From an uncultured Alphaproteobacteria bacterium (GTDB taxonomy: Bacteria; Pseudomonadota; Alphaproteobacteria; HIMB59; GCA-002718135): a stretch of DNA of 64,000 nt. A program made the position numbers and the translations under genes. Location of the stretch: the NCBI GenBank assembly GCA_902522865.1, contig CABYXC010000002.1, positions 1 to 64,000 on the forward strand, written 5' to 3'. Below, piece after piece: positions 8,387 to 14,518 of this stretch; position 1 is the first letter of the stretch, and each line of letters opens with the position of its first letter. The notes under the pieces are model-generated. The model ran no database searches. It worked only from the letters and a program-made list of their open reading frames with translations, and was not told the origin of the DNA.

Positions 8387-10933
8387 ATGCCTCATCAAGA
8401 TGAAAATCTATTAGCCATACTTGGGCCCACTAACACAGGTAAAACTTATACAGCTTTTGAAAAATTATTTTCTTATTCTTCTGGAATTTTTGGTTTCCCA
8501 CTAAGATTACTTGCAAGAGAAAATTATGATAAAGCTGTAAAAAAAATTGGTCTAAGCAATGTAGCATTAATCACTGGTGAAGAAAAAATTATTCCAAAAG
8601 AAGCAAAATATTTTTTTTGTACAGTCGAATCAATGCCAAACAACATATCTGTAGATTGTATAATTATTGATGAAATTCAACTAGCTGCTGATTATGAAAG
8701 AGGCCACATTTTCACTGATAGAATTTTAAATTTAAAAGGTAATTACCAAACAATTTTTCTAGGATCATTGAATATAGAAATAATTTTAAAAAAAATTTAT
8801 CCAAATATTATAATAGAAAAAAAAAATAGGTTTTCTCAACTAACATTTCTTAGAAAACAAAATTTTTCTAAACTCGAACCTAGATCTGCGATAATAGCTT
8901 TCAATATTAATAAAGTTTATGAAATTGCAGAAAATATTCGGACTCATAAAGGTGGTACCGCAGTAGTTTTAGGATCTCTTAGCCCAAGAACTAGAAATGC
9001 TCAAGTTGAAGTATATGAAAATAAAAATGTTGATTATCTTGTAGCTACAGATGCTATTGGTATGGGTCTAAATCTTAATATTAATCACGTAAGTTTTTCA
9101 TCATTGGAAAAATTTGATGGTAGATATAACCGGAATCTTGCCCCCAATGAACTAGGCCAAATTGCTGGAAGGGCAGGCAGATATAAACAGGATGGCACTT
9201 TTAGTTATACTAAGGAAGCTGGGAATTTGGACCCACTAACTATACAACAAATAGAAACACACAACTTTGACAATATTCAAAAAATTTATTGGAGAAATAG
9301 TAATCTAGATTTTAAATCTATCGATGCATTATTTACATCATTAAAAAAGTACCCAATACAGAACTATTTTATACATAAAAAAAATGCTCTAGATGAAATT
9401 AATTTACGTAATTTAATTGAAGATAATGAAATAAAAAAAACTCTTAAATCAAAAAAAAATTTGATGTTATTATGGAACGTTTGTCAGATCCCAGACTTTG
9501 AAAAACTATTTAATGATAATTATTTAATACTTTTAAAAGATATATACCTTATTTTGATAGAAAATAATTATGAGATTCCTGAAGAATGGATTGATAAAAA
9601 AGTTAGCAGACTTAATAATTTTGGGGGAGGAATTCCTGAGTTATCAATCAAAATTTCACAAATAAGAACTTGGACGTATATATCAAATAATCACAATTGG
9701 CTTAAAAATGCGTATTACTGGAAAGAAAAGACCCAGCAAATAGAAAATGAATTATCTGATCAATTACATAATAGTCTTACAAAAAAGTTCATAGATTATT
9801 CTTCTAAATTTTTTATTCAAAATTTAGATTATCAAAAAAACCAAGATATACTTATAAAAAGTAATAAAGAAATATTTTTAGATAACAACAAATATGGGAT
9901 TATAAGGGGTTTTGATCTAATTAAAGATAAAAAAATATTTTCACAATCTCTTTTTTCGATTAGTAATATGAAAAAATCAGTAAGAAATATGATAAATAAT
10001 AAAGTTGAAAACTTTTTGAATGCACCTTTAGATTCTATTAATTTTGGTGATATTAGTAAATTAAAGATAAAAGATGAAACCTTTATTTATTGGGGAGATG
10101 AACCTGTTGGTAAATTGAAAAAAGGTGAAAGTTTATATAAACCTCATACAGATGCTTTAAATTCTGAATATTTAAGTTCAGAAAATAAATTATTAATTTC
10201 TGCAAAACTTCAAAAATGGTTAAATGAACAAATAAATGATACACTTTACCCTCTCAATAAAGATTTAAATGATGATATGAGTTCAGATGCTAGAGCAATA
10301 GCCTTTAATTGCCTTGAAAATTTTGGTAAATACCCAATTGAAAAATTTAAAGATACACTTAAAAATATCACACAAGAAAGTAAATTACATCTTTCAAAAT
10401 TAGGAATTAGAATTGGAGCTAAATACTTATTTATACCAAACTTATTAAAGAAAAAACCTTTAGAACTTTGTGCAATCTTATGGAAAACATTTTATCAAAA
10501 TGAAACAGATAAACTCCTACCACTTCCAACAAATGGTAGAGTATCTTTTATATCAGAAATTAGTATGCCAGATAAATATTGGCAATCTATAGGTTATATA
10601 AATATCAATAACTTTATTTTCAGAATTGATGTTTTTGAGAAGATTTTTTTTCTTGCTAGACAAAAATTAAAAAAAGGACCCTTTTTAGAGTCTTCAGATC
10701 TTATGAACCCTATTGGATGTAATAGTGATCAGCTAAAAGATATAATGGTTTTCTGCGGTTATGAATACATAACTATTTCTGATGAAAAGAAACTTTATTT
10801 TCTCAATAATAGAAAAAAAGAAACAAAGAAAATTATCAATAAAAAATCTAATAAAAAAATAAATAAAAGTAAAAATAATAAAATAAAAAGAGATCCTAAT
10901 TCTCCATTTGCGGTTTTAGAAAAACTTCTTTAA
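8387..10933 (+). CDS. Suv3-like ATP-dependent RNA helicase
   Basis: An 848-residue superfamily 2 helicase. Walker A is GPTNTGKT (13-20), motif II is DEIQ rather than DEAD (95-98), motif V is ATDAIGMGLN (220-229) and motif VI is QIAGRAGR (258-265). This combination is that of Suv3, the helicase of the mitochondrial RNA degradosome, and its alphaproteobacterial relatives. A long C-terminal part of about 550 residues ends in a lysine-rich tail (about residues 805-835). It probably unwinds structured RNA for decay; the partner nuclease is not encoded here. It starts four bases after acnA and leads into terB-like, fdxA and carD. Confidence 0.88.
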   Translation: MPHQDENLLAILGPTNTGKTYTAFEKLFSYSSGIFGFPLRLLARENYDKAVKKIGLSNVALITGEEKIIPKEAKYFFCTVESMPNNISVDCIIIDEIQLAADYERGHIFTDRILNLKGNYQTIFLGSLNIEIILKKIYPNIIIEKKNRFSQLTFLRKQNFSKLEPRSAIIAFNINKVYEIAENIRTHKGGTAVVLGSLSPRTRNAQVEVYENKNVDYLVATDAIGMGLNLNINHVSFSSLEKFDGRYNRNLAPNELGQIAGRAGRYKQDGTFSYTKEAGNLDPLTIQQIETHNFDNIQKIYWRNSNLDFKSIDALFTSLKKYPIQNYFIHKKNALDEINLRNLIEDNEIKKTLKSKKNLMLLWNVCQIPDFEKLFNDNYLILLKDIYLILIENNYEIPEEWIDKKVSRLNNFGGGIPELSIKISQIRTWTYISNNHNWLKNAYYWKEKTQQIENELSDQLHNSLTKKFIDYSSKFFIQNLDYQKNQDILIKSNKEIFLDNNKYGIIRGFDLIKDKKIFSQSLFSISNMKKSVRNMINNKVENFLNAPLDSINFGDISKLKIKDETFIYWGDEPVGKLKKGESLYKPHTDALNSEYLSSENKLLISAKLQKWLNEQINDTLYPLNKDLNDDMSSDARAIAFNCLENFGKYPIEKFKDTLKNITQESKLHLSKLGIRIGAKYLFIPNLLKKKPLELCAILWKTFYQNETDKLLPLPTNGRVSFISEISMPDKYWQSIGYININNFIFRIDVFEKIFFLARQKLKKGPFLESSDLMNPIGCNSDQLKDIMVFCGYEYITISDEKKLYFLNNRKKETKKIINKKSNKKINKSKNNKIKRDPNSPFAVLEKLL

Positions 10934-10954: not shown

Positions 10955-11404
10955 TTGATAAAACTATTAAAGAATATTTTAAATAATCAGGATTCTAAAG
11001 AAGACAAAGATTATAATCAAAATCTAGAATTACTCTCTGGATTGATGATTGAAGCTGCATATACTGATGGCCAGATTGACAAAAGTGAATTAGATAAAAT
11101 AAAATTAAGTTTAGTAAATATCTTCCAAGAGGATATAAATGAAGTTAATTTAGTTCTCGAAGAAGCAGTAAAAAATAAAAATAATTCTAAATCTCTTCAC
11201 CATTATACATCATATATAAACAAAAATTTTGACAGTGATAAAAAAATTCTTCTTATTGAAGTTTTATGGGAAATTGTTTTATCTGATGGAAAGGTACATG
11301 ATTTTGAGTCAAATCTTATTAGAAGACTAGCAGGATTACTCTATATTTCTGATGTTAACTCTGGAAATGCAAGAAAAAGAGCTCTAGATAAACTTAAGAA
11401 ATAA
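10955..11404 (+). CDS. TerB-family (tellurite-resistance-like) protein
   Basis: A 149-residue, all-helical protein with the two TerB half-motifs: [12 protein letters not shown] (about residues 34-45) and [13 protein letters not shown] (about residues 107-119). Both carry the acidic DG...E pattern that in TerB domains binds metal ions. The start is a TTG preceded by AGGTAG. TerB-like proteins occur in many bacteria in stress or envelope contexts and the cellular role is unclear, so the tellurite name should not be taken literally. It sits 21 bases after the Suv3-like gene and two bases before fdxA. Confidence 0.72.
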
Positions 11405-11405
11405 T

Positions 11406-11741
11406 ATGACTTACGTCGTTGATGAAAAATGTATAAAATGCAAGCATATGGACTGTGTAGAAGTCTGTCCCGTTGACTGTTTTTACGAGGGTGAAAATAT
11501 GTTAGTTATTCATCCAGATGAATGCATAGATTGTGGTGTTTGTGAACCAGAGTGTCCAGTTGAGGCAATATTATCAGACACAGAGGATGGAATAGAAAAA
11601 TGGGCAGAAATTAATAGACAATTCTCCGAAATATGGCCAAACATTAGTGAGAAAAAAGAACCTCCCGCTGATGCTGAACGGTGGCAAGATGTTAAAGACA
11701 AATTCAATAAATATTTCAGTAAAAATCCAGGAGATAAATGA
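11406..11741 (+). CDS. fdxA: Seven-iron type ferredoxin FdxA
   Basis: A 111-residue ferredoxin with two clusters of cysteines: C9, C12, C17, C21 and C25 in the first half, and C40, C43, C46 and C50 in [11 protein letters not shown]. This fits a [3Fe-4S][4Fe-4S] or 2[4Fe-4S] ferredoxin with the long C-terminal extension typical of alphaproteobacterial FdxA. It is an electron carrier; the partner is not identifiable from context. The stop overlaps the ATG of carD by four bases, so the two are coupled. Confidence 0.92.
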
Positions 11742-12241
11742 AAACAAAAAAAAATTCTGAGTTTAAAGTAGGTGAAGTTGTAGTTTATCCAAAACACGGT
11801 GTAGGAGAAATCACAAAAATTGAAAATATGGAAATTTCTAATATTAAAACAAGTTTTTATGTTGTTAAAATGGAGCAATCAAAGCTCATAATTAGAGTAC
11901 CACTTGATAAAAAAGATGAAGTTGGATTGAGGAAAATTTCTCCAAAGAAAATTATTGAAGAAGTCTATAATACTTTAAAGCTGAAACCAAAGATAAGAAG
12001 AATTATGTGGAGCAGGAGAGCTCAAGAATATGAAACAAAGATTTTTTCTGGAGAACCCGTTAAGATTGCTGAAGTAGTCAGAGATTTATTCAGAAAAACT
12101 AGTCAAGCAGAACAATCATATAGTGAAAGACAAATGTTCCAAGTTGCAATTGAACGTTTAGCTAGAGAAGTTGCAGCAGTTGAAAAAACAGATTATTTTC
12201 AATCAACTGAAAAAATAGAACAGATATTGAGTAAAAAATAA
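11738..12241 (+). CDS. carD: CarD/CdnL family transcription regulator
   Basis: A 167-residue protein with an N-terminal RNA polymerase interacting domain ([17 protein letters not shown], about residues 9-25) and a helical C-terminal DNA-binding domain. CarD/CdnL proteins bind the RNA polymerase beta subunit and stabilise open promoter complexes, notably at rRNA and other growth genes. It lies between fdxA and the gene leading to rpoH, an order common in alphaproteobacteria. The start overlaps fdxA. Confidence 0.93.
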
Positions 12242-12245
12242 TATT

Positions 12246-13058
12246 TTGAATAACATTAGTAACTTTGTAAAACTTACAAAATCAAACAAAATTTGGGCTA
12301 TTGGTTCAATTCATTCTAATATAAAATCCTTTACTCAAATTAAAAAATTTATTTTAAATAATTTTGAAGAAAATGATAAATTAATATTTCTTGGTAATAT
12401 TATCGGATTAGGTGAAAGTTCCAAGGAAACTCTAAATAGTGTGATTGACTTAAGATTTAATTTGATGTCAAAATTCAAATTAAAATCAGAATCAATTGTT
12501 TTTTTAAGAGGTGCGCAAGAAGAAATGTTTAGTAAGTTGTTGCAACTACAACTTGCTCCCAATCCAACTGAGATCGTAGAATGGATGTTTGACCATGGTG
12601 TAAATGAAACTATTAAATCATATGGTTTTTCAGAATACGAAGTAAAAAATATTTCCTCATCTGGAACTATAAATATTTCTAAATGGACAACAAATCTAAA
12701 TAAAGCACTTCAAAAAAATCTTGGTCATACAGAATATTTTCTTAATTTAAAACATGCTGCATACTCAAAGAGTGAAAAAATTTTATTTGTTAACAGAGGT
12801 GTTGATATAACTAGACCACTATCGGCACAGAACGACTGTTTTTGGTGGGGTTTTCAAAATTTCTCTAAAATACAACAACCATACAAAACATTTCTAAGAA
12901 TTGTTAGAGGATATGAATCTGAACATGTTAATTGTTTAAAAATATCAAAAAACAATTTTGTATGTACTTTATTTAAACAACCACTATCAAATAAGTCTAT
13001 CTTATGTGGAATTTTTACAGAAAATGGGGAAATTTTAGATATTTTTGAAAATAAGTGA
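12246..13058 (+). CDS. PPP-family phosphatase-like protein lacking catalytic residues (likely pseudoenzyme)
   Basis: A 270-residue protein whose frame matches Ser/Thr-phosphatase-type metallophosphoesterases. It starts on TTG, four bases after carD, and domain homology begins near residue 15. The landmark motifs are present but degraded. GDxHG reads GSIHS (20-24, Asp lost, H23 kept), GDxxDRG reads GNIIGLG (50-56, both Asp and Arg lost), GNHEE reads GAQEE (89-93, Asn and His lost), and the later histidine motifs read VNRGVD (182-187) and VRGYE (220-224). Nearly all metal ligands are gone, yet the frame is intact and motif spacing is kept. I therefore infer a binding or regulatory role, perhaps connected to its neighbours CarD and RpoH, and not hydrolysis. 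Confidence 0.65.
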   Translation: MNNISNFVKLTKSNKIWAIGSIHSNIKSFTQIKKFILNNFEENDKLIFLGNIIGLGESSKETLNSVIDLRFNLMSKFKLKSESIVFLRGAQEEMFSKLLQLQLAPNPTEIVEWMFDHGVNETIKSYGFSEYEVKNISSSGTINISKWTTNLNKALQKNLGHTEYFLNLKHAAYSKSEKILFVNRGVDITRPLSAQNDCFWWGFQNFSKIQQPYKTFLRIVRGYESEHVNCLKISKNNFVCTLFKQPLSNKSILCGIFTENGEILDIFENK

Positions 13059-13089: not shown

Positions 13090-13956
13090 ATGTCTATCAA
13101 AAATCTTTTCATTTCAAATAATCTTATTGAATTATCAAAAAAAGCTGCAATTCTTGAAAAAGAAGAAGAATTTTATTTAATTAACGACTGGAGAGATAAT
13201 AAAACACCAAAATCACTGCAAAAAATACTTAATTCATATCTTCGTTTAGCAGTATCTTACGCTAGAAAATACTCTAGTTATGGCCTACCAATAGATGATC
13301 TAATTCATGAAGGTGTTCTTGGAATTATGCATGCATTGGAAAAATTTGACACTTCAAAAGATTTTAGACTTTCAACATATGCGTCTTGGTGGATAAGAGC
13401 ATCAATACAAGATTATATCTTAAAGAATTGGTCAGTAGTTCGAACTGGTTCAACCGCATCTCAAAAGGCACTCTTTTTTAATCTTAAGAAAATAAAACAA
13501 AAAATAAATGATGTATCTAGAGAATTTATGGGTCAGAAAGAAATAAATGAAGTATCGAAAATGCTTAATGTTAAATCCTTAGAAGTACAAAATATGGAAT
13601 CCAGGCTTACCGGTGGTGATTTATATCTAAATCAAAAAGTTGACAACGAAACAGAAAATGATCTTATGAGTTTATTAGCTGATGATCGACAAAATCCTGA
13701 AGAGTCTTTCGAGGATTTTAACGATAAAAACATTAAAAAAGATTTTATCAATAAAGCTATAGATACATTAAATGATAGAGAGAAAACTATTATACGCTTA
13801 AGAAAATTTAGAGAAAAAAGTATAACTCTAGATGAGTTAGGGCATAAACTAAAGATAAGCAAAGAAAGAGTTAGACAAATTGAAACTAAAGCTCTAGAAA
13901 AATTAAAGAAATCTTTACTCGATATTTCACAACAAAATAAAGAATTTTTTATTTGA
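13090..13956 (+). CDS. rpoH: RNA polymerase sigma-32 factor RpoH
   Basis: A 288-residue group 3 sigma factor. Region 2 contains DLIHEGVLGIMHALEKFD (70-87) and the RLSTYASWWIRASI stretch. The RpoH box, QKALFFNLKK (125-134), is the diagnostic heat-shock sigma signature. Region 4 ends with a helix-turn-helix (LGHKLKISKERVRQIE). It directs transcription of chaperone and protease genes. It follows the pseudo-phosphatase by 31 bases. Alphaproteobacteria often have two RpoH paralogues; this window shows one. Confidence 0.95.
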   Translation: MSIKNLFISNNLIELSKKAAILEKEEEFYLINDWRDNKTPKSLQKILNSYLRLAVSYARKYSSYGLPIDDLIHEGVLGIMHALEKFDTSKDFRLSTYASWWIRASIQDYILKNWSVVRTGSTASQKALFFNLKKIKQKINDVSREFMGQKEINEVSKMLNVKSLEVQNMESRLTGGDLYLNQKVDNETENDLMSLLADDRQNPEESFEDFNDKNIKKDFINKAIDTLNDREKTIIRLRKFREKSITLDELGHKLKISKERVRQIETKALEKLKKSLLDISQQNKEFFI

Positions 13957-13987: not shown

Positions 13988-14518
13988 ATGTTCAGAATAT
14001 TTCTATTATTAACATTAATTTTATTTTCAAGAGAAGCTATTACAAAAGGTACGAATGTTTTTGGTCTAGGGATATATGATATTAAATTTGATGGTTCTGA
14101 TAAAAATCAATCTGTTGACTTCAGATACGAATATAGAAGTGATTACACATTAATTGATATTGGACCAAAAGAAGATAATTTTTTTTTCTTGAAACCTTTC
14201 TTTGGAGTTGAATATACCAATGACTCCGCATCTTATTTTTTAACTGGGATATATTTTGAGGATAACGTCGGCGAATTATTTGAAGGAAATAAAAGTAAAC
14301 TTTTTTTTACACCAAGTTTTGGAGCCGGTTTTTATAATGATGGGTCAGGAAAGAAACTAGGAAATGATTTACAATTCAGAACATCTTTAGAAATAAGTTA
14401 TCAATTAAAAAATAAAAATAGAGTTGGAATCTCTTTTAGTCATATTTCAAACGCAAATTTAGGTGACAAAAATCCAGGTGTTGAAATTTTAAGTATTTCA
14501 TACCATGTGCCTTATTAA
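13988..14518 (+). CDS. Lipid A 3-O-deacylase of the PagL family
   Basis: A 176-residue outer-membrane beta-barrel protein with a signal-like N terminus (about residues 1-19). Alternating hydrophobic strands follow, and the end is an aromatic C-terminal strand (SYHVPY). The catalytic motif FSHISNANLGDKNPGVE gives H152, S154 and E166. The spacing +2 and +14 equals the His-Ser-Glu triad of Pseudomonas PagL (H126, S128, E140). PagL enzymes remove the 3-O acyl chain of lipid A at the outer membrane. It follows rpoH on the same strand and ends four bases from the convergent dusA. Confidence 0.8.
   Translation: MFRIFLLLTLILFSREAITKGTNVFGLGIYDIKFDGSDKNQSVDFRYEYRSDYTLIDIGPKEDNFFFLKPFFGVEYTNDSASYFLTGIYFEDNVGELFEGNKSKLFFTPSFGAGFYNDGSGKKLGNDLQFRTSLEISYQLKNKNRVGISFSHISNANLGDKNPGVEILSISYHVPY

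Follow-up and report, generated by a model that had tools for sequence, protein, structure and literature searches.

A protein with the outline of a phosphatase and with most of its metal ligands replaced is encoded between carD and an rpoH-type gene of an uncultured alphaproteobacterium, and a protein altered in the same way recurs across many alphaproteobacterial families, in most cases beside carD. The window, i.e., the whole stretch of 64,000 nucleotides analysed, carries the open reading frame at 12246..13058 (plus strand); its 270-residue product is referred to below as X, and genus means the window's own genus. From the ORF and from homologue and structure comparisons, X was annotated as a pseudophosphatase of the PPP fold. 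The frame opens with TTG (12246..12248, plus strand), 4 nt past the carD stop codon, and has no internal stop, so the intact frame described in an earlier sequence-only reading of this DNA stood. A weak start at or near the carD stop (12242-12248 in the window) was conserved: the first possible X start, counting ATG, GTG and TTG, was TTG or GTG in 78 of the 79 genus loci with carD, and it lay 4 bases past the carD stop, the commonest spacing, in 50 of them. The first possible start of carD itself was ATG in 79/79. The TTG/GTG starts, mostly 4 bases behind the carD stop, suggest coupled, low-dose translation of X. The promoter scan gave 38 promoter-like sequences versus 37.7 in shuffles, and the terminator scan gave three terminator-like ones versus 1.4 (sd 1.4).

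At the level of single sequences X was hardly recognisable. No Pfam model scored above its cut-off for window X or nine other X proteins, and no NCBIfam cut-off was reached by any of them. PF00149 did not reach its gathering score and was unlisted for window X; it was listed for one of the nine others, at 14.6 bits versus a gathering score of 21.5. The sole match of window X, a weak one, was to the ApaH model (E 0.00096, 18.5 bits), for which the equivalog cut-off (NF001204, symmetrical Ap4A hydrolase) stands at 176 bits, and the nine other proteins scored at most 20.3 bits against it. A sequence search of solved structures returned no match up to E 10. Plasmid records searched with the X protein of locus L115 yielded four matches of at most 34% identity, annotated as metallophosphoesterases. 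The closest named relatives of X (among the best 80 of 200 matches) came from uncultured Alphaproteobacteria, with Pelagibacterales or Pelagibacteraceae in the titles of some records; we take these organisms to be marine.

Since single-sequence searches barely detect X, a profile or structure test was needed, and both succeeded. When the X family profile from across the class (28 rows) was aligned with 21 canonical PPPs in hhalign, the probability was 99.7 and the E-value 5.6e-27, and the main motifs were aligned to one another. With a canonical PPP as the query, X was retrieved from the genome of the window (E 2.1e-7) and from carD-linked positions in other genomes. The AlphaFold model of X, built with 58 sequences, had a mean pLDDT of 82.7 and a pTM of 0.84, the mean pLDDT ranging from 67.9 to 82.7 across the five models. 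Foldseek matched the model to PP5 (E 8.8e-9), at an rmsd of 7.6 and TM-scores no better than about 0.5. In the VIA comparison the best solved match was 5vjv, Rhizobiales-like phosphatase 2 (Z 17.0, 219 residues, rmsd 4.1), and ApaH was matched at Z 13.2. X is thus, as the sequence-only reading had proposed, a member of the PPP-fold superfamily of calcineurin-like metallophosphoesterases by both common fold and sequence homology. In a quick tree X formed one clade, separate from the 21 canonical PPPs (SH-aLRT 100).

The canonical PPP motifs are named GDxHG, GDxxDRG, GNHE, VHAG and HGH, and their positions in X (all on the plus strand) were checked against an alignment of canonical PPPs. The altered landmarks GSIHS, GNIIGLG and GAQEE were found in order, with their first residues at G20, G50 and G89, just as the sequence-only reading had placed them. 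GSIHS (residues 20-24, 12303..12317) replaces GDxHG, the metal-1 Asp being lost and the His (H23) retained; the claim that the metal ligands are gone thus holds for most of them, though not for H23. GNIIGLG (residues 50-56, 12393..12413) stands in place of GDxxDRG, and RGAQEE (residues 88-93, 12507..12524) in place of xGNHEE. Behind the latter, the alignments and hhalign revealed a stretch conserved in X, KLLQLQLAPNP (residues 97-107, 12534..12566), which is about five residues longer than in canonical PPPs. VNRGVD...RPLSAQNDCFWWG (residues 182-202, 12789..12851; alignment and model) replaces VHAG...WIR; it is highly conserved, and the model confidence is low from residue 185 onward. The canonical WIR Arg is absent, and the FWWG region is found there. 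VRGY (residues 220-223, 12903..12914) takes the place of VHGH. The later histidines were said to have become Asn and Tyr, which is right for N183, at the His position of VHAG, and for Y223, at the second His of VHGH, but the first His of HGH is Arg221. Residues 185-212, with the almost invariant FWWG, were modelled at low confidence, perhaps a sign that this segment needs a partner.

The same sites were then scored in 62 X proteins of the class from outside the genus. The metal-1 Asp was found in 0/62 (Ala in 41, Ser in 15) and the His of GDxHG was retained in 53. The bridging Asp had become Asn51 in 59 and the second Asp of GDxxDRG was Gly54 in all 62, with Arg at the DRG position in only 19. 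The Asn of GNHE occurred in none; the adjacent His position was Gln91 in 57 and His in two, flanked by Arg88 in 59/62 and Glu92 in 62/62. Position 183, that of the VHAG His, was occupied by His in 34, Ser in 13 and Asn in 11 proteins. Gln195 (61/62), Asp197 (58/62), Trp200 (60/62) and Trp201 (61/62) were nearly constant. The first His position of HGH was Arg221 in 58 and His in none, and position 223 was Tyr or Phe in 55 and His in one. The WIR Arg, which aligns to position 202 (MAFFT) or 203 (hhalign), was gone in at least 61 of the 62, the six commonest residues at either position accounting for 61 rows with no Arg among them. No member kept more than three of the eight canonical ligands, three members having that many, and in none of the 62 was the metal ligand set of an active PPP phosphatase (GDxHG, GDxxDRG, GNHE, VHAG, HGH) complete. 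X is therefore probably without catalytic activity, judged by the residues lost.

Within the genus, where counts refer to the best 80 of 200 matches, an alignment of 58 rows (the window plus 57 of the 80 kept matches) was examined. All 58 carried the same ligand replacements, S21, H23, N51, A90, Q91, N183, R221 and Y223 being invariant. A relative at the same locus with the canonical ligands was found neither in these 58 rows nor among the 62 class members. The median NG86 dN/dS of X in the genus was 0.149 (2178 of 3240 pairs), about three times that of carD (0.056), with rpoH at 0.044. Twelve former active-site positions had a mean entropy of 1.11 versus 1.79 for random columns (p 0.012), an average that hides several positions, e.g., 55 and 90, that were no more conserved than an average column. 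A frame artefact was considered and rejected, the frames being open in relatives and dN/dS standing at 0.15. The class-shared losses, the conserved replacement residues and the low dN/dS argue for a rebuilt protein rather than a relic. Altogether, a pseudophosphatase family is well supported, and the sequence-only reading was right that an inactive-looking PPP-fold protein is kept by selection beside carD, with ligand losses shared by homologues at the same locus.

Of 190 alphaproteobacterial genomes, 64 yielded X (E below 1e-30; three weak class matches, G142, G150 and G067, are not counted), 62 of them outside the genus. In the genus, 28 of 37 genomes had it. The other nine likewise showed no carD, and since genus assemblies are partial (56-82% complete), the carD-X locus is probably just missing from them; a scattered absence of X within the genus is thus unsupported. 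One apparent match, in genome G016, was discarded as a canonical PPP encoded elsewhere in the genome (L029, 1420-2139, minus strand) with all ligands; that assembly shows neither carD nor X. With the window protein as a query, X was not found in 24 genomes of f2, the other family of the order. In two f2 genomes (G037 and G040; loci L175 and L176) CarD bears a lysine-rich N-terminal extension, and no rpoH match lay within 1.5 kb of carD. In a phylum sample of 398 genomes all 13 strong matches (E below 1e-80) fell inside the class, and among genomes labelled "same phylum" the top match reached E 1.8e-19. Six weaker matches, two of them from outside the class (L328, L332), all carried GDIHG, GDYxDRG and GNHE; the loci inspected in this sample comprise neither weak rows beyond these six nor the strong class match G586. 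On a CarD tree of 129 rows (134 less the five below 130 residues) with few well-supported branches, X presence changed 16 times versus 42 in shuffles. This distribution fits descent with repeated loss, a count of changes being blind to gain versus loss, and the family would be ancient in alphaproteobacteria.

The window places X in a tightly packed series of genes: a Suv3-like helicase gene at the head (8387..10933; PF22527, 6.5e-28), a TerB-domain gene (10955..11404; PF05099, 1.4e-24), an fdxA-like ferredoxin gene (11406..11741), carD for a CdnL-type RNA polymerase-binding factor (11738..12241; CarD_C 1.5e-21, CarD_TRCF_RID 6.2e-14) and X, followed by the rpoH-type sigma-32 gene (13090..13956), all on the plus strand. 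The rpoH-type product scored 270.6 bits with PRK06596 (cut-off 241), 312.3 with PRK07500, just below 315, and 264.2 with TIGR02392, below 323.1. Behind it, at 13988-14518, is a gene for a PagL-like lipid A deacylase (PF09411, 2.7e-18).

The two transcription genes that the sequence-only reading had named as the setting of X differed in how closely they accompany it, and the carD link proved the firmer one. Among the 80 genus loci kept (best 80 of 200), carD adjoins X in 79, the 80th being cut by the contig end. In the 62 class loci carD lies within 600 bp upstream of X in 51 and in the fetched flank in 53; the linkage also held in four of four further phylum-sample loci. In the nine class loci without carD in the fetched flank, carD was located elsewhere in six genomes and was present in G152, and none was seen in G246 and G225. 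The rpoH link was weaker, rpoH being found behind X in 70/80 genus loci (of the same best 80 of 200) and within 900 bp of X in only 23/62 class loci. The other ten genus loci (L088, L093, L095, L096, L100, L102, L104, L106, L107 and L109) have carD-X without rpoH behind X and retain the genes beyond rpoH. Directly behind X in these ten stands a gene with an N-terminal sequence similar to that of the PagL-like gene.

Covariation of evolutionary rates pointed in the same direction. The X-CarD correlation was 0.69, or 0.59 given ferredoxin (42 genomes) and 0.67 given RpoH (20 genomes), and of CarD, ferredoxin, TerB and rpoH it was CarD with which X covaried most strongly; these are pairwise values, the control proteins are short and noisy, and no genome-wide tree underlies them. 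CarD was found in 62 of 64 genomes with X and 102 of 126 without it (p 0.0016, uncorrected for kinship).

We consider that, with about an even chance of being right, X represents an ancient pseudophosphatase family that serves CarD-dependent transcription as a binding partner with no catalytic role, the evidence for CarD as the partner being confined to gene order and rate covariation. One PPP gene, ApaH or PrpE-like, would have become established behind carD early in the history of the alphaproteobacteria; with metal binding and phosphate handling lost, it would have been rebuilt as a binding module with a conserved surface of its own. The conserved surface of X comprises N51, R88-G-x-Q91-E-E, KLLQLQxAPNP, R-W-T, PGH, FWWG and R221-G-Y/F. 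Expression would probably be from the carD operon and at a low level, with the weak TTG start coupled to carD translation. The target of X would most likely be CarD, or the RNA polymerase initiation complex with CarD bound, and X would adjust CarD availability or output by a non-catalytic route, a direction of effect that we infer; it may respond to a small molecule bound in the former active-site cleft. Two observations weigh against the partnership: the cluster also contains the helicase, TerB and ferredoxin genes, so neighbours may be passengers, and the 102 carD-bearing genomes without X found in the class sample mean that CarD does not need X.

CdnL/CarD is described as binding RNA polymerase and promoting housekeeping transcription (PMC11034885) and as stabilising the open complex (PMC6994171). 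Caulobacter CdnL is reported to be cleared by ClpXP in starvation and the stringent response, with a C-terminal Ala-Ala as the ClpXP signal; the authors do not settle on a trigger of turnover and name two possibilities, the ATP level and a (p)ppGpp-sensitive adaptor (PMC11034885). X would be a carD-linked candidate. It could be pictured as a dedicated CarD/CdnL regulator in many alphaproteobacteria that binds CarD, or polymerase carrying CarD, and links CarD turnover or activity to nutrient or stress state by way of a ligand, an alarmone or another, in the emptied cleft. Outside the genus the Ala-Ala tail ends 100 of 134 CarD proteins, 51/59 in genomes with X versus 49/75 in those without (p 0.005, uncorrected, with only four phylogenetic pairs). 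In contrast to Caulobacter CdnL, none of the 12 commonest CarD endings in the genus (75 of 79 loci) has Ala-Ala. A degron hypothesis tying X to Ala-Ala CarD is not claimed, the genus lacking the tail and the phylogenetic test being powerless. Because genus CarD lacks Ala-Ala and the phosphate-handling arginines of X are mostly gone, which count against an adaptor, we rate the ligand-driven regulator as doubtful and well below the general reading. Likewise, since the WIR Arg is gone in nearly all class members and the DRG Arg is kept in under a third, there is no preference for a phosphate or nucleotide sensor over a scaffold that binds protein; the sequence-only reading had suggested a binding sensor, possibly for a nucleotide or phosphoprotein.

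The strongest competitor keeps the pseudophosphatase and changes its partner: X would serve a different process, whether one encoded in the operon (RNA helicase, TerB or ferredoxin) or one unlinked to it, and its place beside carD would reflect inherited operon order. Such an arrangement is possible, if clearly less probable than the CarD partnership; a ferredoxin gene is present no more than 2.5 kb upstream of X in 43 of the 62 class loci, X directly follows the ferredoxin gene with no carD between in L217, and carD often occurs without X. The survival of the carD-X adjacency after rpoH has departed and the preferential rate covariation of X with CarD speak against it.

Less probable still, and in our opinion unlikely, is a retooled enzyme with the same fold and a new chemistry, which would draw on the conserved Arg, Gln, Glu, Asn and Trp residues and use another metal or no metal at all. 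The average conservation of the former active-site positions would agree with it, as would the frequent retention of H23 and of the VHAG His, but the small number of ligands kept by any member and the loss of most of both phosphate-handling arginines do not, and position 183 varies among His, Ser and Asn in a manner unusual for a catalytic residue.

A role of X in regulating the neighbouring RpoH sigma factor, in heat or oxidative stress, seems very improbable. It would account for the rpoH genes found behind X in most genus loci and some others, but not for the ten genus loci in which X has no rpoH behind it; these genomes, all partial, encode an RpoH 50-61% identical elsewhere in six cases and only a 43-45% type in four. 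Moreover, X and rpoH rates were uncorrelated given CarD (0.014, 20 genomes), and rpoH follows carD directly in 22 of 75 loci without X (75 of the 102 carD-bearing genomes without X were covered, the other 27 being left out). A decaying phosphatase copy, for which the lost catalytic residues and a dN/dS above that of the neighbours might be quoted, has next to no probability, being already contradicted by class-wide losses, open frames, the dN/dS of 0.15 and many conserved replacement residues.

Of the known bacterial PPP metallophosphatases (ApaH, PrpE, Rhizobiales-like phosphatase 2; PF00149), X shares the fold over most of the protein, the order of the main motifs and homology; it differs in having other residues in place of most metal ligands, of the general-acid His and of the phosphate arginines, in falling below the PPP model cut-offs and in its own KLLQLQxAPNP and FWWG segments. 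Eukaryotic pseudophosphatases keep a phosphatase fold under selection without the catalytic residues, and to our knowledge conserved pseudophosphatases are best known from eukaryotes; X, in contrast, is bacterial, class-wide and carD-linked. A search of titles and the opening lines of abstracts, mostly outside subscription journals, found no description of the X family or of a bacterial counterpart, and the family is apparently undescribed. Genes for X, if annotated at all, may be labelled as active metallophosphoesterases, which is our guess, and would in that case be credited with a wrong activity. A class-wide bacterial pseudo-PPP that no Pfam or NCBIfam model fits, tied to a global initiation factor, offers a lead on the control of CarD. 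If the ligand-driven regulation of CarD were true, X would be a candidate for the missing factor sought by the CdnL field.
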